Below are positions 30,983-61,458 of a DNA stretch of 64,000 nt, one piece after another. Location of the stretch: the NCBI GenBank assembly GCA_025937835.1, contig JAICQO010000003.1, positions 62,001 to 126,000 on the forward strand. Direction: 5' to 3'. The stretch is from Polyangiaceae bacterium (GTDB taxonomy: Bacteria > Myxococcota_A > Polyangia > Polyangiales > Polyangiaceae). Positions within the stretch are counted from its first letter, which is position 1; each line of letters opens with the position of its first letter. The translations under genes and the position numbers were made by a program. The notes below the pieces were generated by a model, which was not told the origin of the DNA, did not search any database, and was given only the letters and a program-made list of their open reading frames with translations.

Positions 30983-31699
30983 GTGCAAAGTGGCGGAACG
31001 GTGAGCCGAAGCTCCGGCTTGCCGCGTCCATCCCTCATTCCCCGGTCTGATTTGGCATCCCGCTCGCTCGACGCGCCGAAGCTCCGCCTGGTGGGCGGGG
31101 GCAGAGCCCTGGCCAGGGGCGACAGGGCGACGCCGTTCGACGAGCTCTCCGATGCCGAGCTCGTAGCCCTCGCCGCCGAAGGCGAGCCGCTCGGCTTCGC
31201 GCTGCTCTACCGGCGTCATTCGGGCTTCGCGCTGACGCTCGCGATCCGCATCCAGGGCAACTCGGGAGACGTCGAGGACATCGTCCACGACGCATTCTTG
31301 CGCGCGCACGGCCGGCTCGGTGAGCTGCGCGACGGCGCTGCGTTTCGTCCCTGGCTCGGCAGCATCGTGGTGCGCCTGGTTCGGACGCGCTTGCGGCGGC
31401 GGCGCCTGCTCGGTGCGCTCGGGCTCACGACGCCAGAGCCCGTCGACCTCGACGCCATCGCGTCGCCCTCGGCGGACAGCGAGTCGCGGGTGCTGCTGGC
31501 GCAGGTCTACGCGCTCTTGCAGACGCTCCCCGCCGACGATCGCATCGCCTGGACGCTTCGTTACATCGAGCGGCACCGGCTGGAAGCGGTGGCCGGGCTC
31601 ACCGATTGCTCGCTTGCCACGGCCAAGCGCCGCATCTCGCGAGTGCAGCGCTTCCTCGCGGGTCACTTCGTGGCCCCGTTCTCGAAGGAGAGCGCATGA
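30983..31699 (+). CDS. ECF-like sigma factor, module A
   Basis: A 238-residue sigma-70 family factor with regions 2 and 4 only. Region 2 includes GFALLYRRHSGFAL and DVEDIVHDAFLRAHGRL; region 4 is LPADDRIAWTLRYIERHRLE followed by the helix-turn-helix around AGLTDCSLATAKRRISRVQRF. The first 50 residues are a variable extension, so GTG 30983 is uncertain; GTG 31001 is possible. The stop overlaps the start of the next gene (ATGA), the usual arrangement of a sigma and its membrane regulator. It probably directs transcription in response to an envelope signal. Confidence 0.88.
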   Translation: MQSGGTVSRSSGLPRPSLIPRSDLASRSLDAPKLRLVGGGRALARGDRATPFDELSDAELVALAAEGEPLGFALLYRRHSGFALTLAIRIQGNSGDVEDIVHDAFLRAHGRLGELRDGAAFRPWLGSIVVRLVRTRLRRRRLLGALGLTTPEPVDLDAIASPSADSESRVLLAQVYALLQTLPADDRIAWTLRYIERHRLEAVAGLTDCSLATAKRRISRVQRFLAGHFVAPFSKESA

Positions 31700-32691
31700 T
31701 CGAGGACGAGCTGTCGAAGCTGCCGGAGGGCGCGCTCGCCGACTACCGCCACGACGAACGGCTGCAACGCGTCTGGGGACGGCTCGAAGACGACCTCGGA
31801 CGCCAGCGCGTACGACCGCGGCCGGCGTTTCTGTACTTGCCGGCGTTCGGCGCGGCGTTGTTCGCGCTCGGCGTGCTGGTCGGGCGAACGACGCACGTCG
31901 CGGAGCCCTCGCCGAGCGTGCTGGCCGAGCCGCCGCGGGTCGCGGAAGCGGCGCCCAGCCCCCGCCCGGCGAGCGCCGAACAGCGGGCGGACCCGCAACG
32001 GCCGGCAACCACCGCCGCGGCCCGGCCCGCCGTGTCCCCGCGCGGCAGCCTGACGGCGCGGCCGCCGGTGGAAGGGCCGCACCAGCCCCTGGTCAGCGAT
32101 CCGGTGCCCTTCGCTTCGGCATCTCCTGCGGCCCCGCCGCAATGGCAAGCACTGGCCGAGTCGGGCGACTTCACGGGCGCTCACGCCGCGCTCGAACGCA
32201 GCGGCGGCTTCTCGATGGCTCTCATCGGGGCTTCCCCCGAGGTGCTGATGTCGCTCGCCGACCTGGCGCGCGCGACGGGTAGCCGCGACCAGGCCGTGAC
32301 CGCATTGCGGCGGCTCTTGACCGTCCACCCAGACGCTCCGGAGACGCCGCTCGCAGCCTGGACGCTCGGCAATTTGCTGGAGCAGACCGGCGACCGCAGC
32401 GGCGCAGCCGAAGCCTTTGCGCTGTATCGCCGCTTGTCTCCCACGGGTGATTTCGCGGAAGATGCGGCCGCTCGCCAGTTCGAGAGCGCCCTGTCCGAGG
32501 GCAATCTCGAGCTCGCGCGACAGCTCGTGGACCAGTATGCAAAGGACTTCCCCCACGGTCGCCGTGTCGCCGAGCTCCGCGAAGAGCTGGCGAAGGTCGA
32601 GGCCGAGGTGGCCGGCGCCGGCGCGCCGAGCGTCGTTTCGGATTCCGGCGTGCCCGAGCCGGAGCAACCGGCAGCTCCGCCAGCTCAGTAG
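31696..32691 (+). CDS. Single-TM TPR protein, probable anti-sigma factor, module A
   Basis: A 331-residue membrane protein. A cytosolic head (1-43) contains DERLQRVWGRLEDDL, a helix resembling those in the equivalent proteins of modules B and C. One membrane span lies at about 44-62. A Pro/Ala linker to 150 and helical TPR repeats (about 155-300: MSLADLARATGSRDQAVTAL, LAAWTLGNLLEQTGDRSGAA) are predicted periplasmic. Gene order, coupling and topology suggest anti-sigma function, but no Zn-binding HxxxCxxC motif of classical anti-sigma factors is present. Confidence 0.75.
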   Translation: MIEDELSKLPEGALADYRHDERLQRVWGRLEDDLGRQRVRPRPAFLYLPAFGAALFALGVLVGRTTHVAEPSPSVLAEPPRVAEAAPSPRPASAEQRADPQRPATTAAARPAVSPRGSLTARPPVEGPHQPLVSDPVPFASASPAAPPQWQALAESGDFTGAHAALERSGGFSMALIGASPEVLMSLADLARATGSRDQAVTALRRLLTVHPDAPETPLAAWTLGNLLEQTGDRSGAAEAFALYRRLSPTGDFAEDAAARQFESALSEGNLELARQLVDQYAKDFPHGRRVAELREELAKVEAEVAGAGAPSVVSDSGVPEPEQPAAPPAQ

Positions 32692-32698
32692 TCGCGCG

Positions 32699-33655
32699 CT
32701 GAGGCTCGCTCTGTGGGCGCTGCTCGCGCTGTGCAGCGCCGTGTCACCGGCCTACGCGGCGGGCCGAGCCGAGGTCGTGATCGAGGTGGACCCTGCCGGT
32801 GAGCGACTGCTCGACGCGCGGGCGGTGCGGCGCCTGGTGGCGCTCGAGCTCGCCGACGTGGAGGTGCCGGTGGCGCCGGGCGGCGCGCTCTCGGCGTTGT
32901 TCTACCGCGTGCTCGGCGACAACCGAGGCTTCGTCGAGCTGGAGCTCTGGGAGCGCGGGACCCTGTACGGGAGCCGCCGTGTCTCCCGCGTCGACCGCGC
33001 AGGGCATCTCTTCGCGCGGCGAGTGGCGCTGGCGGCCGCCGAGCTGGCGCGCGCTCTCCGGCAGCAACGCATCGCCAAGCGGCGGGTCGAGTCGCGACGG
33101 CTCGCCCGCGAGCGCGCCGAACGCCGCCGCAAGCTGACGCGGACGCTCGAAGGCCCGCTCGCGCTGCGCAGCGGCGTGTTCGCGGCCCGCGGCGACGCGC
33201 TCACGGTGTTCGGCTCGAACCTCACCGTCGGCTTCACGTTGGCCGGAGCGACACGGCTCGACCTCGGCGCGCGCGTCAGTGGAGCCGAGCTCTCGGACGC
33301 CGATGCGCGCTGGACGGCGCTCGAGCTCGAGCTCGGTCCGGCACACCGCTTCCGTCTCTCGAGCGGGCTCGATCTGGACCTGTCGACCCTGGTCGGCGTC
33401 TCTGCGCTCCACGTCACGGGCGTGCGCGGAGTGGACGACATCCGCGAGCAAGACGAGACCTGGACGGCGCGCGCCGCGCTCGCGCTGCGGCTCGAGCCGC
33501 GTCTCAGCCGCTGGCTGCGGGCGAGCTTCGGGCTCGAAGGCGGCCAATATTTGCGGGCAATTCCGCTCGAAACCGCGACGGGTGCCACCGCGCGGCTCCG
33601 GAGCGCCTACGCCGGCTTCGGGCTCGGCCTCGTGCTCACGCCGCCGCGAGAATGA
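32699..33655 (+). CDS. Secreted beta-rich protein, module A (start uncertain)
   Basis: About 318 residues if translation starts at CTG 32699, directly after the stop of the previous gene. That start gives a perfect signal peptide (LRLALWALLALCSAV, cleavage after AYA). No ATG, GTG or TTG lies between the previous stop and the signal peptide; ATG 32537 inside the previous gene would add about 54 Arg-rich residues. The mature N-terminal 110 residues include ELELWERGTLYGSRRVS and an Ala-rich helix; the rest alternates polar and hydrophobic residues like an outer-membrane barrel. It resembles the module B and C proteins in layout more than in sequence. Confidence 0.65.
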   Translation: MRLALWALLALCSAVSPAYAAGRAEVVIEVDPAGERLLDARAVRRLVALELADVEVPVAPGGALSALFYRVLGDNRGFVELELWERGTLYGSRRVSRVDRAGHLFARRVALAAAELARALRQQRIAKRRVESRRLARERAERRRKLTRTLEGPLALRSGVFAARGDALTVFGSNLTVGFTLAGATRLDLGARVSGAELSDADARWTALELELGPAHRFRLSSGLDLDLSTLVGVSALHVTGVRGVDDIREQDETWTARAALALRLEPRLSRWLRASFGLEGGQYLRAIPLETATGATARLRSAYAGFGLGLVLTPPRE

Positions 33656-52740: not shown

Positions 52741-53409
52741 CTAGTTTCGCGAGCGCTTGTCGCAGAACGCCGTGGCTCGCACGGCTTGCGGCGAGCTCTT
52801 CGGCAAACGCGCGAGCTCGGACCGCGCCTCGGAGAAGCGGCCGAGCGTGCACAGCGCCTCGGCCCGCGCGGCGCGCCGCTCCAGCGTGAGCGCACCCTTC
52901 GGAAACTTGCTCTGGTGCTCGTTCAGCGCCGACAGCGCGTCCGCCGCGCGCCCGGCGCGCAGATCGGCCGCCGCGCGCGCGAGGATCGCGACTTCCTCCG
53001 ACAATCGGTCCGGAGCGCGCCGGGACGGGGGCGGCGCCTGGGCTGCGTTGGGTTCGGCCGGCGCAGGCGGCGCCGCTGAGGGAGCCTCTGCCGGTGGCTC
53101 GACGGCGGGCGGGGGTGAGAGCGGCGCGACCCGCAGCGAGACGGACGGCGCTGGAGGCGGCTCCGGCGGCCCGCTGTTCACGAGCAGCGTTCCCACGATG
53201 CCCACGCCCACGAGACCGGTCGCCACCAAGGCCCAGCCTTTGGCTGGTGCGGCCTTGAGCGGCGCGCTCGCATCTCCCGCGCCGAGCGGCGCTCCACCGA
53301 GACGGCCCTGCAAGGCGTGGAAGACGCGCTCGCGATCGGCGTCGTTCGGCCGCAACGCACCCTTGCCGGAGCTCACGAGCTCGCGTGCTCTGGGGCTCAG
53401 CTCTGACAT
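52741..53409 (-). CDS. Single-TM TPR protein, probable anti-sigma factor, module B
   Basis: A 222-residue membrane protein. The cytosolic head has MSELSPRAREL and RERVFHALQGRLGG (27-39). One span lies at 59-77, a Pro-rich linker to about 132, and a TPR-like C-terminus (ADLRAGRAADALSAL, RAARAEALCTLGRFSEARSEL). The head and C-terminus align well with the module C protein at 59535-60425. The start overlaps the sigma gene by 13 bp. Anti-sigma function is inferred; no Zn motif is seen. Confidence 0.78.
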   Translation of the reverse strand: MSELSPRARELVSSGKGALRPNDADRERVFHALQGRLGGAPLGAGDASAPLKAAPAKGWALVATGLVGVGIVGTLLVNSGPPEPPPAPSVSLRVAPLSPPPAVEPPAEAPSAAPPAPAEPNAAQAPPPSRRAPDRLSEEVAILARAAADLRAGRAADALSALNEHQSKFPKGALTLERRAARAEALCTLGRFSEARSELARLPKSSPQAVRATAFCDKRSRN

Positions 53410-53933
53410 CGGCGGCGCGCTCCTTCGTTTTTCAGCTCGTGTCGTGCCAGGGCTTCTTCGAACTCTTGGCGTGCAGCCCGGAGCCGCGAGTAGGCGGTGT
53501 TGAGCGGTATCTCTAGCGCTGCAGCAACTTCGGGCACGCTCATCTCTTCCACCTCGACGAGCTCGAACACTTCACGCTTGGCGTCGTCGAGCTTCGACAA
53601 CAACTCTTGGAGCAGCTGGAACTCGCCGGCTCTTTCGGTGAGCTCTTGAGGGGTAGCTGGGGGTACGCCCGTCGTTCCGCTGTGAGTCGCCGCTATCACC
53701 CCCGAGGTTCGTGTGCGGTTACTGCGGTGGTGGCCGCTCACGGTCCGCCGCACGATGCCGTAGATCCAGCTCCTCAAAGACTCCGGCTGCTCGAGGGTGT
53801 GCAGCCGAGAATGAATCACGATAAAAATCTCCTGAACCACGTCATCCATCGCATCGTTGCCGACACCGAGTCGACGAACCGACGACCAGACGAACTCGAA
53901 GTACTGTCGGTAGAGGGCTTCGAAAGAAGGCAC
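53397..53933 (-). CDS. ECF sigma factor, module B
   Basis: A 178-residue sigma factor with regions 2 and 4. FVWSSVRRLGVGNDAMDDVV and IFIVIHSRLHTLEQ represent region 2, SWIYGIVRRTVSGHHR the DNA-melting part, and VEEMSVPEVAAALEIPLNTA with YSRLRAARQEF the region 4 helix-turn-helix. It is a clear paralogue of the module C sigma (VRRLG / LRRLG, QEIFIVIH / QDVFLIVH, SWIYGI / TWIYGI). GTG 53933 is the start. It lies 58 bp after the secreted-protein gene of the same module. Confidence 0.92.
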   Translation of the reverse strand: MPSFEALYRQYFEFVWSSVRRLGVGNDAMDDVVQEIFIVIHSRLHTLEQPESLRSWIYGIVRRTVSGHHRSNRTRTSGVIAATHSGTTGVPPATPQELTERAGEFQLLQELLSKLDDAKREVFELVEVEEMSVPEVAAALEIPLNTAYSRLRAARQEFEEALARHELKNEGARRRCQS

Positions 53934-53991
53934 GTACGAACGAATATGCCCCGACGATCGATGATGCAGTGACCGGACGCGCCGCTCTCCG

Positions 53992-55053
53992 TCAAAAAAT
54001 CCATTCGGGCCCGGCTTTCACCCAGAATGCAGCCGGTTCGAGCTGTTCGACCTCGCCCACCCCCTCGACCACGACGTGGGGGCGGGCCCCCTCGACCTTG
54101 CCACCCAGGCCGAGCATGAGCGCCAAGAAGTCGCTGACGAAGAGGTGACCGAACACGCCGGCCCCCGCGGACACGAAGCTCGCATGGGTTGAACGCGCTT
54201 CGACGCCGGCGCCGGTACCCTCGGCGGTGATTCTTTCCCATCCCACGGTGAGGCACGGCGAGAGCTCGAACGGGTCGGCCCGAAACCCGCGACAGATCCA
54301 GGCCTCGAGCGCCATACGCGACACGTCGGCAGAGAGCCGCGGCTCGCCGCTCACCGAAACCGATTGTGAAGGGCCGAGCTGGAAGTCGAGCGCGAAGCGC
54401 CAATCGCGGAGCAACACGCCGCCTCCGAGCGCACCGCCAAAGCTCGCGTTCGGCAGCGGACCGAGGTCGAACGCGAGCAACGGCGCGTGCAGCAACACGG
54501 CCCAACCGCGGTCGCGAGCCGACACGCGGTCACCCTCGCCAGCCCGCGACCCTTCCTCGGCTGTGTCCGCGGCAGAAGACGGCTCGGCACGCGCTGCGGT
54601 CGGAGCTGCTGCGGCATCGGCTGGCGCAGCGGTGGACGCGGTGGACGCGGTGGTCGCGCTCGACGAGTCAGTCGATTCCGTTTCCGATTCGAGCGCGGGC
54701 TCGGCCGACTGCAGCATCAAGCCGAGCGCAACCGCGGCAGCTCCGGCGAGATCCCGACACGAGTCCGACTCGATCTGACGTTCGCCGCTGAGCTCGCCGA
54801 CGCGCATCACGAGCTTCAGCCGAAAGCGCCGGCCGACCCGCTCGATCCTGCCGTCGGCCTCGAGCCGCTCCTTGCTCGTCGCCTCAGCGGGCACGAGCGC
54901 GTCGATCCGAGCGCGCACCGCCGCTCGTTGCGGACACTCCGGCGGCGCTTGCCAGGTGAGCGACAGCGGCTCGGCGGCGTGGGCGCCGTCGGTAAAGCCC
55001 AGGGCCGCAGCGACCGCCAGCGCGCTAAGGAGCTTCGCGGATCTCGACGTCAT
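53992..55053 (-). CDS. Secreted protein with WQAPxxCP domain, module B
   Basis: A 353-residue exported protein. Signal peptide ends after GAHA (26). The N-terminal domain has LSLTWQAPPECPQRAAVRAR, RFRLKLVMRVGELSGERQ and CRDLAGAAAVALGLML, with two Cys that may pair. An acidic/Ala-rich linker spans about 120-180, and the rest has alternating aromatic/Gly strands (GGALGGGVLLRDWRFALDFQ) consistent with an outer-membrane barrel. It is paralogous to 57983-58909. Its first 29 bp overlap the upstream ConA-like gene, so the transcript may begin further up. Confidence 0.75.
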   Translation of the reverse strand: MTSRSAKLLSALAVAAALGFTDGAHAAEPLSLTWQAPPECPQRAAVRARIDALVPAEATSKERLEADGRIERVGRRFRLKLVMRVGELSGERQIESDSCRDLAGAAAVALGLMLQSAEPALESETESTDSSSATTASTASTAAPADAAAAPTAARAEPSSAADTAEEGSRAGEGDRVSARDRGWAVLLHAPLLAFDLGPLPNASFGGALGGGVLLRDWRFALDFQLGPSQSVSVSGEPRLSADVSRMALEAWICRGFRADPFELSPCLTVGWERITAEGTGAGVEARSTHASFVSAGAGVFGHLFVSDFLALMLGLGGKVEGARPHVVVEGVGEVEQLEPAAFWVKAGPEWIF

Positions 55054-55828
55054 CCACGTACACCGTAGAGGCCCGGGGCATCAGTCTGCTGGCGAGGTTG
55101 CCGACGTACCACTGCGCCCAGGTGGTGTCGTCGGTTCGGAGCTCGCTGAACTCGAGCACGAGCTCACCGTCCTGGTACAGCGCCACTTCGCCCGTCAGAT
55201 CGTCGGCGCGTTTCCAATAGAATTCGATGCGGAACCAGTCGCCGATCGGGATCAGAGGGGGGTCTTCCGCGCGCTTGATTCCGAGGCCGCCCTCCAGTTG
55301 GTCGTACAGATAGAGCCGCGGCTCGAGCTCGTCGGTGCTCTCGACCGAAATGTCCCAGAGGTTGTGCAGCTCCTGCAGGGTGCCGCCCCGAAAATGCACG
55401 AGGTTCCAGTTGCCGGCGTTGATCGGGGCTTCCGGTATCAAGTACCAGGCGCTGTAGTAGCCAGAGCTCGGGAACTGGCCTTCGATGATGCAGCGCGCGT
55501 GGGCGCTGCTGTCGGTCGTGTCGACCGTGAAGGCAGCAGCCCAGTCGCCGCTGTGGACCGGCGAGCTCACGAGCGTGTACGAGGCCTCACCGCCGGAGTA
55601 ACAGAACCCGTTCACGCGCGCGTAATCACAGAAGCCCGTCTCGAAGCTGGTCGACCACGGCACGGTGACCGGCCCTTCGTAAAGGGTGGTCGCGACGTCG
55701 AGGCAACCCCAGTTGCCGACGACCATGTCCGGTTCACAGCCGGAAAGGCAGCTCGTGGCGCCGCACACCAACAGCGAGGCGAGGACACACCTCGCCGAAC
55801 GGTGGTCCAGGGCCGGCCGCGCGGTCAC
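55025..55828 (-). CDS. ConA-like lipoprotein (polysaccharide-lyase-like)
   Basis: A 267-residue lipoprotein. The signal peptide ends in LSGC (Cys31). The mature domain begins with WSTSFETGFCDY and has SSPVHSGDWAAAFTV, YYSAWYLIPEAP, GDWFRIEFYWKR, EVALYQDGELVLEF and VYVDDVEI, the strand order of a concanavalin-like fold found in polysaccharide lyases and carbohydrate-binding proteins. It resembles the C-terminal half of the 4740-5981 protein in type. Catalytic residues cannot be named. It starts 36 bp after the SGNH-like gene and overlaps the module B secreted gene. Confidence 0.68.
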   Translation of the reverse strand: MTARPALDHRSARCVLASLLVCGATSCLSGCEPDMVVGNWGCLDVATTLYEGPVTVPWSTSFETGFCDYARVNGFCYSGGEASYTLVSSPVHSGDWAAAFTVDTTDSSAHARCIIEGQFPSSGYYSAWYLIPEAPINAGNWNLVHFRGGTLQELHNLWDISVESTDELEPRLYLYDQLEGGLGIKRAEDPPLIPIGDWFRIEFYWKRADDLTGEVALYQDGELVLEFSELRTDDTTWAQWYVGNLASRLMPRASTVYVDDVEIREAP

Positions 55829-55864
55829 GCCTGCTGAGATACCACGCCGCGGGCGTGGGGCGCC

Positions 55865-56854
55865 TCACTGCGCGACGCAGAGCTCTTGCATCGTCGCCCA
55901 GATCGCGGCCGCCGTGGCCTGGGAACCCGCGGCAGTGGGGTTCAGGCCGTCGGCCTGGACGATGTACTCGGCATAGTGGCCGTCGAAGACCGGCCTCAGG
56001 TCGAGGAACTGGCAGGGCACGGGGCTGGCCTCGCACGCCCCCTGGAGCATCGGCCTGAGCGCGTCGATCCGCTCCGCCACGTCCTCCCGCTGAGGGTTCG
56101 GATAAAAGACGTAGACCACCTGGGCCACGCCGTCCGCGGCCATCCGAGACAGCAGGCTGGCTGCGGCCTCGGCGGCATCGGCGAGTAACGGACACTCGGC
56201 GTCGGCCACGTCGCACGAGCCGAGCAGCGCGTCCGCTCCGCCGCCGTTCATGATCACGACCCGGATGTCGCCGTCGTCGTCGTGCGCGGACGTGTACTGG
56301 TCCGCGATGCCGTTGCCGGTGTACGCGAGAGCGTTGCCCACGAGCCGCGAGTTGTCGCGGTAGCGCTCGCCAGCGCCGATCGCGCCCGCGTTGCGCGCCT
56401 GGTCTTCGAGGTACGCCGTGATCTGGTGGCTCGCCGCGAAGAAGCTGTCGCCGATCACGAGCACCTCGTTCGCGCCCACGCCGTCGTCCGCGCAGCGCGG
56501 CTCCCCGGCGCGGCACATACCCTGCTGGCAGCGGTGGTCGGCGGAGAGCGCGGCGCAATCGGCGTCCTGCTCGCAGGTCACGTCGCAGCGGCCGCCGCAC
56601 TCGGCGACGCACTCCGCCGTGGCCAGGTCACCGCACGAGTTCTGGACGCTGCAAGCCCGCGAGCAAACGCCGCACAGACACGCGAGCTCGGTCCCGCACG
56701 CGGCGGCGCTCGGGTCGCAGCGCTTCAAGAAATGGGTCTCGCCGCCGCCGGACGCCTCTTCGAGCTCGCCGCCGCTCTCGCACGACAGCGGAGCGAGCAG
56801 GGCGGACGCTACGAGTAAGAATCGGATTGCGCCTACCAGCGCCCTACTCACCAC
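55865..56854 (-). CDS. SGNH-hydrolase-like Cys-rich lipoprotein, probably inactive
   Basis: A 329-residue lipoprotein. Signal peptide ends in APLSC (Cys25). Residues 45-125 hold about 14 Cys in a disulphide-rich region (CLCGVCSRACS, CGGRCDVTC). The SGNH part starts with VLVIGDSFFAASH (Ser about 137). The block III GxND is replaced by NGGGAD, and the block V DxxH is DGLN at 302-305, with Asn305 where His is expected. It may therefore be a binding protein or use another mechanism. GTG start; it overlaps the regulator gene by 11 bp. Confidence 0.75.
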   Translation of the reverse strand: MVSRALVGAIRFLLVASALLAPLSCESGGELEEASGGGETHFLKRCDPSAAACGTELACLCGVCSRACSVQNSCGDLATAECVAECGGRCDVTCEQDADCAALSADHRCQQGMCRAGEPRCADDGVGANEVLVIGDSFFAASHQITAYLEDQARNAGAIGAGERYRDNSRLVGNALAYTGNGIADQYTSAHDDDGDIRVVIMNGGGADALLGSCDVADAECPLLADAAEAAASLLSRMAADGVAQVVYVFYPNPQREDVAERIDALRPMLQGACEASPVPCQFLDLRPVFDGHYAEYIVQADGLNPTAAGSQATAAAIWATMQELCVAQ

Positions 56855-57836
56855 GATCGTTGCCTTCTTGGATCAATGACTGGCCGACGTAAATCACGGC
56901 GCGCGTGTGGGCTTCCGGGGTCTCGTGCCCATCGTTGTACTCGGTGACGCGCGAGCGCAAGTCGGTCAGCGTCGATCGAAGCCGGCTCAGGCTGGCCCGG
57001 ACTTCCTCGTCGAGCGGATGGCCGGGCCAGACGTCGATGGTGTAGGTGCTACCACCCACCTGATCGTCGAGCGCGGCCGGCCGGCTCTGGTCGAGGCGGC
57101 CGAGGACCGTCGTGACCAGCGCCTTGAAGTGGTCGAAAACCGCGGCTTCCCAGCCGACGGGGGCGCCGAGCGGGATCAGCAGCGCGCTCGCCCGGTAGCG
57201 GACGGCGTCCTCGTCCTCGATCCGCTCCACTCGGCCGGCGGCCGAGAGCCGCTCGATGGCGGCTTCGGTCTGCGCCACGTCGGCCTGCGCGCGGTCGGCG
57301 ATTTCTTTCGCCGAGAGCGGACCCTCCCGGTACATGAGCGCGATCAGCAGCTCTTCCATGCCCTGGCCGCCCGAGATCCGGCGCAGGGTCAGGAGCTCGC
57401 TGTCGGAGGCCGCGCGGTACGACGTGGTCGAGCCCGTCCCGGACGAAAACAGCAGCTGGCTGTCGCACAGGTCGCGCAGCACCGCCCGGATCTGCGCCTC
57501 GTCGTCGTTGGGGAACCGCGCCAGGATCTCGAGCCGCGTCACGAGACCGCGCGTGCGCACGAACTCCAGCACCACCTCCCACAGTGAGTGCCCGCGCTCC
57601 GTCGAGCTCTCCGTCAGGCGCTGAATTTTCCGGCGGTAGGTGCGCAGCCCCATCCCGAACATGTCCGCGCTGACCTTGCGGCTCACGCCCTGACGCTCGA
57701 GCTCGCGCACGAGATCGATGAAGACCTGATTCGCGATCTGGGCCAACGGCGCCCGGACGCCGCCGGAAGTCGCAAGCTGCGCGATCAGGATCGTCGTTTG
57801 CCGGACGATGGCGTGAATCAGGAGCTCGATCGTCAT
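56844..57836 (-). CDS. Putative HTH/winged-helix regulator
   Basis: A 330-residue cytosolic protein. The N-terminal 75 residues are helical with a likely helix-turn-helix at ADMFGMGLRTYRRKIQRL. Two winged-helix-like segments follow: about 82-140 (LWEVVLEFVRTRGLVTRLEI) and 165-225 (LIALMYREGPLSAKEIADRA). The C-terminal 100 residues are helical and could be a regulatory domain. No DNA-binding family is firmly matched. It is the first gene of a minus-strand run (SGNH-like, ConA-like, module B) and is divergent from module C, 146 bp away, so it could control both. Confidence 0.68.
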   Translation of the reverse strand: MTIELLIHAIVRQTTILIAQLATSGGVRAPLAQIANQVFIDLVRELERQGVSRKVSADMFGMGLRTYRRKIQRLTESSTERGHSLWEVVLEFVRTRGLVTRLEILARFPNDDEAQIRAVLRDLCDSQLLFSSGTGSTTSYRAASDSELLTLRRISGGQGMEELLIALMYREGPLSAKEIADRAQADVAQTEAAIERLSAAGRVERIEDEDAVRYRASALLIPLGAPVGWEAAVFDHFKALVTTVLGRLDQSRPAALDDQVGGSTYTIDVWPGHPLDEEVRASLSRLRSTLTDLRSRVTEYNDGHETPEAHTRAVIYVGQSLIQEGNDRGE

Positions 57837-57982
57837 CGTCTCACTCGCGAATTCTCAACATACCGACCCCCACGCGCCACGGGGAGGGACATTTTCGACC
57901 CTTCGGCCGCCGCCTCGTGTAGGGGCTGCGCTCACTGGAAAGCGCGCGGAGCGATCGTGCTAGGCTGCCGCGGGAGGCCGCG

Positions 57983-58909
57983 GTGTCAGTCAGGTTGTTG
58001 GGGAGCGCGCTCGCTTCGTCGCTGTTTGCGCTGATTGTGAACGCTCCCACGGCGAGCGCCGCAGAGCCGCGAGGCAGCGAAAGCAGCGACGTTCTGGAGC
58101 TCGACTGGCAAGCGCCCGCCGGCTGTCCCGGAATGAGCTCGGTGCGCGCCGAGGTGCTGCGGCTCGCTCGGGTCGAGACGAAGCCCCGCTCGCCGCTGCG
58201 CGCGAGAGCCGCGATCCGCAGGTACGAGGGCACCTGGCAGCTCGCGCTCTCCACCGAGCTCGACGGGCTCTCGGGCGAACGAGCGCTTACGGCGAGCTCT
58301 TGTCGCGCACTTGCGGACGCCGCAGCCCTGACTTTGGCGCTGATCTTGAACCCCGACGCCGAGGAGCCAGCGCCGGAGCCTTTGACCGAAACCCTGCCGC
58401 TCGAGCTGCGGGTAGCGCTCGGCGCGCGCGCCGGCCTGGAGCACGGTCAGCGCGGCGAGCTCGGCGCGAGCTTCGCGGCGGGCGCCGGGCTTGCGCTCGG
58501 GGCCATGTCCCTCTGGGGTTATGCCGGCTTCACCCCTCCGGATGAGATGCGATTGGACGGCGCTTCCGGTCCAGGGGGGCGGGTCTGGTCCGCCTCCGTG
58601 ACCATGCTGGGGTGCTGGGAGCTCACACGCCGAACGCCGCTCGGGCCGTGCGCCGGCGCCGAGCTCACTCGCCTGCAGGGCACGGGCATCTCGGTGAAGA
58701 ACCCGGAGACGGCGGTTGCCTATTGGGCTTCGGGTGTCCTTGGGCTCCGGGCAGGGGTCCGGCTCGGAGATACGTTCACCCTCCGTCTGGAAGGCTTCGC
58801 GCTCGTCCCGGCCCAAAGACCAAGCCTCTTTTTGGAGGGGCTCGGGGCCATCGTGCGTCCGGATCCCGTCGGAGCAAAGCTCCAGGCGGGGGCCGACCTC
58901 GAGTTTTGA
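57983..58909 (+). CDS. Secreted protein with WQAPxxCP domain, module C
   Basis: A 308-residue exported protein. Signal peptide ends near residue 26 (ASA). The N-terminal domain has LELDWQAPAGCPGMSSVRAE, WQLALSTELDGLSGERALTA and SSCRALADAAALTLALIL, matching module B in order and spacing, with two Cys. After a short Pro/Glu linker (about 132-142) the rest is Gly/aromatic-rich and barrel-like (ALGARAGLEHGQRGELGASF). GTG 57983 follows GGGAGG at 57972-57977. The sigma gene starts 39 bp later. Confidence 0.76.
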   Translation: MSVRLLGSALASSLFALIVNAPTASAAEPRGSESSDVLELDWQAPAGCPGMSSVRAEVLRLARVETKPRSPLRARAAIRRYEGTWQLALSTELDGLSGERALTASSCRALADAAALTLALILNPDAEEPAPEPLTETLPLELRVALGARAGLEHGQRGELGASFAAGAGLALGAMSLWGYAGFTPPDEMRLDGASGPGGRVWSASVTMLGCWELTRRTPLGPCAGAELTRLQGTGISVKNPETAVAYWASGVLGLRAGVRLGDTFTLRLEGFALVPAQRPSLFLEGLGAIVRPDPVGAKLQAGADLEF

Positions 58910-58948
58910 TGACGCCATTCGGCGTGGCTGGCCACCCACAGTCGATCC

Positions 58949-59542
58949 GTGTCTGCCGCTCTTGGGATCCCCGTTTCCGACCGCTCCGACGACGAGAGCG
59001 CGGAGCCGCGGCTCGAAGCGGGCCTTTCGGCGCTCTACCGCGAGCACTTTGCGATGGTGTGGCGTGGCCTGCGCCGACTCGGAGTGCCAGAGGCGTCGCT
59101 CGAGGATGCGACCCAGGACGTGTTCTTGATCGTGCACCGGCGCGCCGGCGATTTCGCCGGGCGCTCCTCGATCAAGACCTGGATCTACGGGATCGCCGTG
59201 CGGGTCGCGAAGGACTATCGCCGCGCAGAGAGGCGCCACTCGCGAAGAGTCGAACAGCTCGCGGCGCGCCTCGCGTACGAACCTGAGAGCGCGCACAGCC
59301 CTGCCGACGAGGCCGAGCACCGCGAAGCGAATCGCTTGCTCCATGCCGCGCTCGCTACGATGGCAGAAGAGCTGCGCGACGTGCTGGTGTTGGTCGAGCT
59401 CGAACAGCTGCCGGTTCGTGAAGCCGCGACTGCTCTCGGGCTACGCGTCCGGACCTGCCAGCGACGCCTGCGCGCCGCGCACGAGGCTTTCGAAGTTGCG
59501 CTCTTGGTCCACCACACACCTCGACGGAGCAACCATGGCTGA
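58949..59542 (+). CDS. ECF sigma factor, module C
   Basis: A 197-residue sigma factor. Region 2: MVWRGLRRLGVPEASLEDAT and QDVFLIVHRRAGDF, with TWIYGIAVRVAKDYRRAERR; region 4: LVELEQLPVREAATALGLRV followed by RTCQRRLRAAHEAF. The first 22 residues are an acidic extension. It shares distinctive words with the module B factor. GTG 58949 is used. The stop overlaps the anti-sigma-like gene by 8 bp. Confidence 0.92.
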   Translation: MSAALGIPVSDRSDDESAEPRLEAGLSALYREHFAMVWRGLRRLGVPEASLEDATQDVFLIVHRRAGDFAGRSSIKTWIYGIAVRVAKDYRRAERRHSRRVEQLAARLAYEPESAHSPADEAEHREANRLLHAALATMAEELRDVLVLVELEQLPVREAATALGLRVRTCQRRLRAAHEAFEVALLVHHTPRRSNHG

Positions 59543-60425
59543 TCTCAGCGCGCACGCACGACGCGTGCTGGCTCTGGCGAGAGACACCGATGAGCCCTCG
59601 CCAGGCGTACGGGAACGCGTCGAACGCGCGCTGTCGGCGCGGATCGCGGGGGGCGCAGGGCCGCTCTCCCCGACGCTCGGCAGTGCGAGCGTCCCACTCG
59701 CGGCGAAGGTCCTGCTACCGGTCGGCATCGCCGTGGCCGTCGTCGGCGCGGGCTGGCTCGGTCTCCGACCGGCGAGTGAGAGGCCCGGTCCGGCGTCAGG
59801 GCAGCCGCCGGCCTCGACGACTCCCCCGGCCATCGCGATCTTGCAGGCCCCCGCGCCGCCGCCCGCCTTCCAGTCGCCGAGCCCCGACGACACGCAGGCA
59901 ACCGCGCCGGGGACGAACGCGCCCCGGACGACCGCGCCGAAGGCGACCGCTCCGAAGGCGACCGCTCCGGAGGCGACCGCTCCGAAGGCAGCCCTGGACG
60001 AGCCCGCGCCCGCCGCGGGCTCGCCGCCCCCTCGCGCACGAGCGGTTGACGAGAGCTCGCCGTTGCCTGCGCCGGAAAGCGCGTCTCCCCGCGCAGCCTT
60101 CGACGGCGAAGACGAGCCAGCGCTGGTCGCCGCACCCGCTCGGAAACCCGCGCGAGACCCGCTACTGGCCGAGACCGACGCCCTCAAAGAGGCGCAGCGC
60201 GCCCTGCGCAGCGGCGATACACAGCGGGCGCTGGAGCTCCTGTCCAGCCAAGATCGAACGTTCGCAACGGGCTCGCTGCAGCAAGAGCGCGCCGCGGCTC
60301 GGATCCTCGCCTTGTGCCAGGCCGGCCGGGGCGAGCAAGCGCGCGCGCTCGCCGCCCGCTTCATCGAACGTTGGCCGCGCTCGGCGCTGCGCGCGCGAGT
60401 CACCGCGGCCTGCCGGGCTCCGTGA
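59535..60425 (+). CDS. Single-TM TPR protein, probable anti-sigma factor, module C
   Basis: A 296-residue membrane protein. The cytosolic head has MADLSAHARRVL and RERVERALSARIAGG (26-40); the span is at about 56-77. A long disordered linker contains repeated KATAP pentamers (about 155-185) encoded by 15-bp units. The C-terminal TPR-like region (AQRALRSGDTQRALELL, AARILALCQAGRGEQARALA) matches module B closely, ending with Cys. Anti-sigma function is inferred from coupling and topology. Confidence 0.78.
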   Translation: MADLSAHARRVLALARDTDEPSPGVRERVERALSARIAGGAGPLSPTLGSASVPLAAKVLLPVGIAVAVVGAGWLGLRPASERPGPASGQPPASTTPPAIAILQAPAPPPAFQSPSPDDTQATAPGTNAPRTTAPKATAPKATAPEATAPKAALDEPAPAAGSPPPRARAVDESSPLPAPESASPRAAFDGEDEPALVAAPARKPARDPLLAETDALKEAQRALRSGDTQRALELLSSQDRTFATGSLQQERAAARILALCQAGRGEQARALAARFIERWPRSALRARVTAACRAP

Positions 60426-60474: not shown

Positions 60475-61458
60475 ATGAACCGAACTCTCACGCGCAACCT
60501 CGTCACGGGTTTCATGGCATTCGGCGCGCTCGGCGTCGCCTGCGGCAAGGACGACAGCCTCGGCAACGACAGAGACGACGCCTTGCCCGCCGCCGGCAGC
60601 GCGGGCGAAGAGTCCTCCACGGGCGGGACCACGGGAGGCTCGAACAGCGGCGGTGCGCCCGGCCAGGGCGGTAGGGACGCCGCCCCCGGTGGCGACGGCG
60701 GCACAGACGCCGGCCCCGGTGGCGACGGCGGCACGGGCGCCGCCCCCGAAACCGGCGGGCGCGGCGGCACGAGCGGTGGCAGCGCTCCCACTACCGGCGG
60801 CCGGGCTCCTGCGACCGGAGGCGCACCGGAGCCCACCGCTGGTAGCGGTGGCGCGACGGAGCCGGACGACTTCGTCAACGATCCGAGCGATGTCGGGAGC
60901 GGGCCCTGCACCGACACGTCGCTCGCCGACGTCCTCGAGCAGATTGCGACGCTCGAGCCGAACGTGACGCTCCCCGAGCTCACCTCACCCGAGTCGTTCA
61001 TCGTCCGGGGCGGCGTGCTCGCGATGCATTTCGGCGATGGCTTCCGCGTCGTCGTCTCGGTGGGTGCGGGCGATTGCCCGGCGGGCTGCGCCGACCGCGA
61101 GTACTGGTACTTCGAAACCGACGCCGAGTGCCGCCCGGTCCGGGTCGGTCATTATGCGCGGCTCCAGAGCGCCGGCTGCGTCGAGGTCGGCGAGCCACTG
61201 TGGGACCTCCCCGCGCCTTCGGCGGCCGGCGCCTGTGCGCCGCTGGACCTGAGCGACCTCAACACGAGCTGCGTCGACGACGCCTGCCCCTCAGCGCTCG
61301 AAGCCGTTCACTTCTACGGTGCGGCAGGCACGAGCGGCCCCGAGTTCTGCTGGTGCGTCATCACCTGCGACGCAGAGGGCAGCCGCGGCCTGTGCCCCGA
61401 AGGCACGAGGTGCCAGTACATCGGGGACGGCCCGGGCGAGGTCTGCTGGGGCTCCTAG
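60475..61458 (+). CDS. Gly-rich-linker Cys-containing lipoprotein
   Basis: A 327-residue lipoprotein. Signal peptide ends in LGVAC; a linker of GGxGG, TGG and GGDGG units runs to about 135. The C-terminal domain has about 14 Cys (GDCPAGCADREYWYF, CWCVITC, CPEGTRCQYIG), so it is disulphide-rich. No family is recognised. ATG 60475 follows AAGGA and places the lipobox properly. It starts 49 bp after module C on the same strand and could be a target or member of its transcript. Confidence 0.7.
   Translation: MNRTLTRNLVTGFMAFGALGVACGKDDSLGNDRDDALPAAGSAGEESSTGGTTGGSNSGGAPGQGGRDAAPGGDGGTDAGPGGDGGTGAAPETGGRGGTSGGSAPTTGGRAPATGGAPEPTAGSGGATEPDDFVNDPSDVGSGPCTDTSLADVLEQIATLEPNVTLPELTSPESFIVRGGVLAMHFGDGFRVVVSVGAGDCPAGCADREYWYFETDAECRPVRVGHYARLQSAGCVEVGEPLWDLPAPSAAGACAPLDLSDLNTSCVDDACPSALEAVHFYGAAGTSGPEFCWCVITCDAEGSRGLCPEGTRCQYIGDGPGEVCWGS

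Follow-up and report, generated by a model that had tools for sequence, protein, structure and literature searches.

Modules B and C, two ECF sigma factor loci of a Polyangiaceae bacterium, belong to a widespread myxobacterial module family with a predicted small outer-membrane barrel

In a 64,000-nucleotide stretch of a Polyangiaceae genome (contig JAICQO010000003.1, positions 62,001 to 126,000; hereafter the window), two gene sets called modules B and C lie close together on opposite strands. Both have the order secreted protein (SEC), ECF sigma factor (SIG) and single-pass membrane protein with a TPR tail (TM). The locus thus raises the question of whether the two sets form a meaningful inverted pair, and whether they could represent a signalling system in which an outer-membrane protein feeds a sigma factor.

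Layout of modules B and C and their place in a larger family

The genes, coordinates and gene order that a first-pass annotation had assigned to both modules were confirmed by the gene calls, and the motifs it had listed as shared (WQAPxxCP in SEC, LRRLG or VRRLG plus xWIYGI in SIG, RERVxxAL in TM) are all found in the translations. It had not recognized a tagged lipoprotein as a fourth component. The features are as follows:

SEC-B, 53992..55053, minus strand: secreted protein with predicted signal peptide, periplasmic domain and barrel
SIG-B, 53397..53933, minus strand: ECF sigma factor (PF04542, PF08281, TIGR02937)
TM-B, 52741..53409, minus strand: putative anti-sigma factor with head, one TM helix, linker and TPR tail
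LP-B, 55025..55828, minus strand: lipoprotein ...SGCEPDMVVGNWGC... with tag C-x6-G; the outer domain is polysaccharide-lyase/concanavalin-like, though only weakly so in this copy
Divergent intergenic region of 146 bp, 57837..57982, no strand: separates the B-side gene run (57836 leftward) from module C
SEC-C, 57983..58909, plus strand: architecture of SEC-B with a shorter linker; SEC profile match E=1.8e-67
SIG-C, 58949..59542, plus strand: ECF sigma factor (PF04542, PF08281, TIGR02937)
TM-C, 59535..60425, plus strand: putative anti-sigma factor with head, TM helix, linker and TPR tail
LP-C, 60475..61458, plus strand: lipoprotein ...VACGKDDSLGND..., tag C-x6-G, Gly/Ser-rich linker and Cys-rich end

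The start of TM-B overlaps the stop of SIG-B by 13 nt, and that of TM-C overlaps the stop of SIG-C by 8 nt. On the minus strand, six genes that overlap or almost touch run from 57836 to 52741, divergent from module C across the 146 bp, and may form a single transcript. Module C has a tagged lipoprotein gene of its own downstream. A search for a common promoter upstream of each module had been suggested as well, and it demonstrated none shared by the modules. Words enriched upstream of SEC derive mostly from the coding sequence of lipoproteins; a GTGACA motif precedes three relatives, but nothing in the window matches it.

Of the three intervening genes, described as including a putative HTH regulator, the one at 55025-55828 encodes a conserved lipoprotein, and the HTH matches are weak. 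The latter belong to the first gene of the B-side run (56844-57836, minus strand), which shows several winged-helix (TrmB/MarR-like) matches below curated cut-offs and possibly encodes a regulator. The remaining gene (55865-56854, minus strand) encodes an SGNH/GDSL-like lipoprotein with DUF459 just below cut-off. Neither of these two genes was found beside B-type relatives, and both were rejected as module parts.

All three protein pairs are homologous according to BLASTP, which confirms the claim that the B and C proteins are paralogous: SEC-B and SEC-C share 36% identity over 78 aa of the N-domain (4e-11), SIG-B and SIG-C 35% (2e-26), and TM-B and TM-C 38% over the TPR tail with a weaker match of the heads (6e-10 and 1e-6). 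Nevertheless, the inverted pair failed as a meaningful unit. The nearest paralogue of SIG-B within the same genome lies on another contig (C57; 53% sigma identity), in agreement with the sigma tree, which also places SIG-C nearest to a paralogue other than SIG-B; this rules out a local inverted duplication. The 13 SEC-linked sigmas of the source genome that were included in this tree sit together with three others in one cluster of 16. With 14 SEC profile matches, the source genome has about 14 modules. B and C are two of them, and since they are not mutual closest relatives, their side-by-side inverted placement is a coincidence of neighbourhood.

The first-pass reading would have been refuted if homologues of the TM and secreted proteins were usually not linked to a sigma gene. 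Using separate SEC, SIG and TM profiles in six genomes, we found the opposite: SEC lies directly upstream of a same-strand ECF sigma gene in 55 of 65 cases, with an ECF sigma gene within 2.5 kb of four more, TM directly follows an ECF sigma gene in 61 of 76 cases, and 50 sigma genes are flanked by both. By a hand estimate (51 sigma genes in 6.9 Mb, 900-bp same-strand window), adjacency by chance is expected for about 0.3% of genes. A few SEC and TM genes in these genomes have no sigma gene nearby, some of them at contig ends. Homologues of SEC-B occur in 35 of 59 related genomes (protein search), and SEC is present in 22 of 142 genomes of the phylum (profile search), mostly genomes of the same class, plus some from other classes. 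Among the 80 named loci nearest to SIG-B, nearly all are labelled Myxococcota (Polyangiaceae, Labilithrix, Sandaracinus, Kofleriaceae, Nannocystis, Enhygromyxa, Plesiocystis and an Archangium MAG), the others being labelled only loosely, for instance as Deltaproteobacteria or Proteobacteria. SEC lies directly upstream of 56 of the 79 nearest named-locus sigmas placed on a tree, and SEC-linked sigmas cluster together. Modules B and C are therefore real members of a large, widespread family of myxobacterial modules.

As a unit, this family has probably not been described. In line with the earlier remark that no such system was known, no description of a SEC-SIG-TM module was found in the literature searched, which left out the main ECF classification paper.

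The window also contains a further locus, module A (31052-33655, plus strand), which encodes an ECF sigma factor, a TM protein that spans the membrane once and has clear TPR repeats, and a secreted protein without Pfam match. Its sigma falls into a separate clade together with own-genome loci L048, L060, L056 and L051 and the SEC profile does not recognize its third protein, so it was not counted as a family member. It may represent a second, parallel sigma/TPR module family with the order SIG-TM-secreted.

Architecture of the SEC, SIG and TM proteins

The secreted protein had been read as an N-terminal domain joined to a barrel-like half, and structure prediction upheld this. An AlphaFold2 model of SEC-B based on 55 homologues (mean pLDDT 84) predicts a signal peptide and an N-domain (residues 30-116), which a linker modelled with low confidence joins to eight long strands (184-352) ending in F; the barrel and the periplasmic domain reach pLDDT around 95. 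In fold comparisons, the barrel resembles NspA, OmpA and OmpW (Z ~16-17, rmsd ~2.5-2.9 over ~150-166 residues), and many SEC barrels have a C-terminal aromatic residue. The N-domain, predicted to be periplasmic with a beta-alpha-beta-beta-beta-alpha arrangement, also folds alone in prediction (pLDDT 92.8, pTM 0.84), and C40 and C99 (SEC-B numbering) are invariant in the homologue alignment. When we asked whether it has the STN fold of Fec-type signalling domains, its best fold matches were HPF/protein Y, the periplasmic N-domain of TolB, PqiC and LptE; with Z values of 7-8.5 these perhaps reflect merely a common arrangement, and for this reason we draw no function from them. Taken as a model prediction, it is very likely that SEC combines an N-terminal periplasmic alpha/beta domain with an eight-stranded outer-membrane barrel. 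Compared with OmpA, NspA and OmpW, which share the predicted fold of its C-terminal half, SEC differs in its own N-terminal periplasmic domain and its linkage to a sigma gene. The peptidoglycan-binding C-terminal domain of OmpA is absent from SEC-B, as the barrel ends at residue 352 of 353 and no Pfam match was found. Neither SEC-B nor SEC-C matches a Pfam or NCBIfam family, and the 55 homologues gave only stray single matches in Pfam, including one outer-membrane barrel model (E=0.003); the family is thus at present unannotated.

SIG-B and SIG-C contain sigma regions 2 and 4 without region 3, with PF04542, PF08281 and, in NCBIfam, TIGR02937 above cut-off. The TM family begins with a head of the approximate consensus SELSPxARxLLxxARxxxxPSxxDRxRVRxALxxRLG. 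A single hydrophobic helix comes next, and a linker rich in Pro and Ala connects it to the TPR tail, in which two cysteines are strongly conserved. TM-B fits this layout with its 'SELSPxAR..DRERV..AL' head, a single TM helix near residue 59, a P/A-rich linker and the conserved cysteines C187 and C216 in the TPR tail. In Pfam, the tails of TM-B and TM-C match TPR models weakly. The claim that these proteins lack classical zinc anti-sigma motifs held: searches of Pfam and NCBIfam gave no zinc-finger match, and the heads contain no cysteine or zinc motif. The same searches returned no FecR domain, only TPR-type or weak matches, and no match of the head to a known anti-sigma domain.

Ten or more loci (among them L165, L167, L170, L176, L181, L186, L191, L196, L197 and L192), most of them from Nannocystis isolates, encode sigma factor, head, TM helix and TPR tail in one open frame. 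No such fusion occurs in the window, where modules B and C are unfused. Among the sequence evidence, these frames argue most strongly for joint action of sigma and TM; the fusion itself is shown, the mechanism is inferred. The fused state needs about three changes on the sigma tree, so that more than one fusion event is conceivable, albeit not shown. Judged from sequence alone, the fused proteins are likely to be membrane-tethered sigma factors, which would therefore be either released by cleavage or active at the membrane.

A tagged lipoprotein as fourth component

Many modules adjoin a lipoprotein gene, downstream of TM in most and upstream of SEC in B-type modules; in relatives, B-type modules are directly preceded by a conserved gene of the LP-B type. 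These lipoproteins share a tag after the lipidated cysteine, mostly C-x(5-7)-[LIV]-G, which reads CEPDMVVG in LP-B and CGKDDSLG in LP-C. In a strict search, the tag was found at 30 of 117 module 3' ends compared with 2 of 463 control positions. It thus marks a minority of module ends, and some modules seemingly lack a tagged lipoprotein. Within 464 kb of the source genome, LP-C is the only tagged one among 22 lipoproteins (0 of 21 unlinked ones). Within this sample, the tag is restricted to module-linked lipoproteins. An alignment of 61 module lipoproteins has invariant C and G columns at a mean column identity of 8%; as these proteins were chosen by the motif, the invariance is largely built in and it is the control counts that carry weight.

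Behind the tag, the outer domains vary and include i) polysaccharide-lyase-like (lyase/lectin-like) domains, ii) GH54 arabinofuranosidase and GH8, iii) beta-helix and RCC1, iv) Kazal- and pacifastin-like inhibitors and v) thrombospondin type 3. PF14099 is matched by 9 of the 61 and by LP-B with E=0.003. In one further locus (L119:418-1941, minus strand), the tagged module lipoprotein consists of a full alpha-L-arabinofuranosidase B catalytic domain and DUF4215, which suggests the possibility that some modules are wired to polysaccharide breakdown.

A short conserved motif right after the lipidated cysteine is also known from the Bacteroidetes lipoprotein export signal, some carriers of which have carbohydrate-active domains as well (PMC5080379). 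The module motif C-x(5-7)-[LIV]-G differs from K-(D/E)2, is only module-linked in our sample, and a surface location has not been shown.

Possible mechanism and rival explanations

Chains from an outer-membrane protein via an anti-sigma factor to an ECF sigma factor are established elsewhere (PMC8999054; PMC11637429), and the well-studied ones depend on TonB-dependent receptors. Like FecI-FecR-FecA or FoxI-FoxR-FoxA, the modules combine in one cluster an outer-membrane protein with N-terminal periplasmic domain, a single-pass inner-membrane protein and an ECF sigma factor. In contrast to these systems, they have an OmpA/NspA/OmpW-like eight-stranded barrel instead of a TonB-dependent receptor and a TPR tail instead of a FecR domain, and their fourth gene usually encodes a tagged lipoprotein. 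A TonB-dependent receptor (plug and 22-stranded barrel) is not met by SEC, given the eight-stranded prediction and the lack of a Pfam TonB-receptor match. The modules would hence work like ECF cell-surface signalling, yet they fail two component criteria, the FecR domain and the TonB-dependent receptor. The Nannocystis fusions recall IutY (ECF243), a fused sigma/anti-sigma protein activated by proteolysis through Prc and RseP (PMC8999054); in contrast to IutY, the window modules are unfused, and the fused relatives have a TPR tail and a partner barrel that is not a TonB receptor.

On balance we favour, by a small margin and without an experiment or a predicted complex, that each module forms a self-contained unit for a kind of ECF cell-surface signalling that does not depend on TonB. 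In this view, TM would be a single-pass anti-sigma factor whose short cytoplasmic head holds the sigma factor at the inner membrane, with the TPR tail, probably containing a disulfide, in the periplasm. SEC would act as the outer-membrane transducer, its periplasmic domain meeting the TPR tail on a flexible arm, and the tagged lipoprotein as a surface binding partner with an outer domain differing per module, whose tag would dock on SEC or the TPR tail. Ligand binding or an altered state of the lipoprotein would change the SEC-TM contact, TM would then be cleaved by regulated intramembrane proteolysis, and the freed sigma factor would transcribe its own operon and targets. What our data show of this is gene linkage, domain architecture, the predicted barrel and periplasmic domain, the sigma-TM fusions and the lipoprotein tag with its restriction to modules in the sample. 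Every protein contact is inferred, and so are the orientation of TM in the membrane, the exposure of the lipoprotein at the surface, the ligand, proteolysis, signalling direction and autoregulation. M50 site-2 proteases are encoded in the source genome, which is weak support for proteolysis because nearly all genomes have them. Before the signal arrives, the outer-membrane signalling domain of a known system is already in contact with the anti-sigma factor and shields it from proteolysis (PMC11637429), and we therefore leave the direction of the effect open. A point against our reading is that SEC could be the output instead of the sensor. The earlier idea of an outer-membrane receiver feeding a sigma factor through the TM/TPR protein is accordingly supported by barrel prediction, linkage and fusions, with the signalling function remaining an inference.

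The main rival is export control, in which SEC moves the tagged lipoprotein to the surface, the tag is the export signal, and the TPR tail of TM binds the tag of unexported lipoprotein and thereby releases sigma to make more SEC; the sigma factor would monitor export and not an outside ligand. The pairing of SEC with a lipoprotein whose conserved tag directly follows the lipidated cysteine, the similar position of the Bacteroidetes export signal (PMC5080379) and the great variety of outer domains speak for it, and TPR domains often bind peptides. The restriction of the tag to module-linked lipoproteins fits export control and surface signalling alike. An eight-stranded barrel, however, is too narrow for a folded protein, SEC matches no known family, and a detectable tagged lipoprotein is not present in every module; we regard export control as unlikely.

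Even less probable is an envelope-stress system, in which SEC reports the state of the outer membrane, TM senses misfolded or mislocalised SEC, as in OMP-triggered sigma-E, and the lipoprotein is a mere regulon member. An outer-membrane protein gene in an operon with a sigma factor and a membrane protein would be in line with this, as would the C-terminal aromatic residue of many SEC barrels. A general stress system would not be expected to comprise about 14 diverged modules in a genome, many of them with a lipoprotein of their own, and it also leaves the conserved periplasmic domain with its two invariant cysteines without a role. We likewise give little credit to TM as a positive co-factor or tether with SEC only a co-expressed target. 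The lack of a known anti-sigma domain in TM is compatible with this, and the fusions, which bind sigma to TM permanently, would fit a tether too, whereas a position right after sigma in the operon and a single-pass layout are traits of anti-sigma factors.

Returning to surface signalling, a bolder version, to which we lean slightly less than to its negation, sees the modules as plug-in, TonB-independent surface sensing with a private OmpA-sized barrel, a TPR anti-sigma factor and a lipoprotein of constant tag and swapped outer domain. Myxobacteria would then signal from lipoprotein to sigma through a dozen or more channels in parallel, some of them condensed into membrane-tethered sigma fusions. 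If a widespread family of small barrels and tagged lipoproteins holds true, it would provide many orphan myxobacterial ECF sigmas with partners and a testable logic, and about 14 of the roughly 50 ECF sigma genes detected in the source genome would belong to it. It would also predict which surface proteins, among them glycosidases as well as lectin-like and protease-inhibitor-like proteins, are wired to transcription, and would thus bear on the sensing of prey and polymers.
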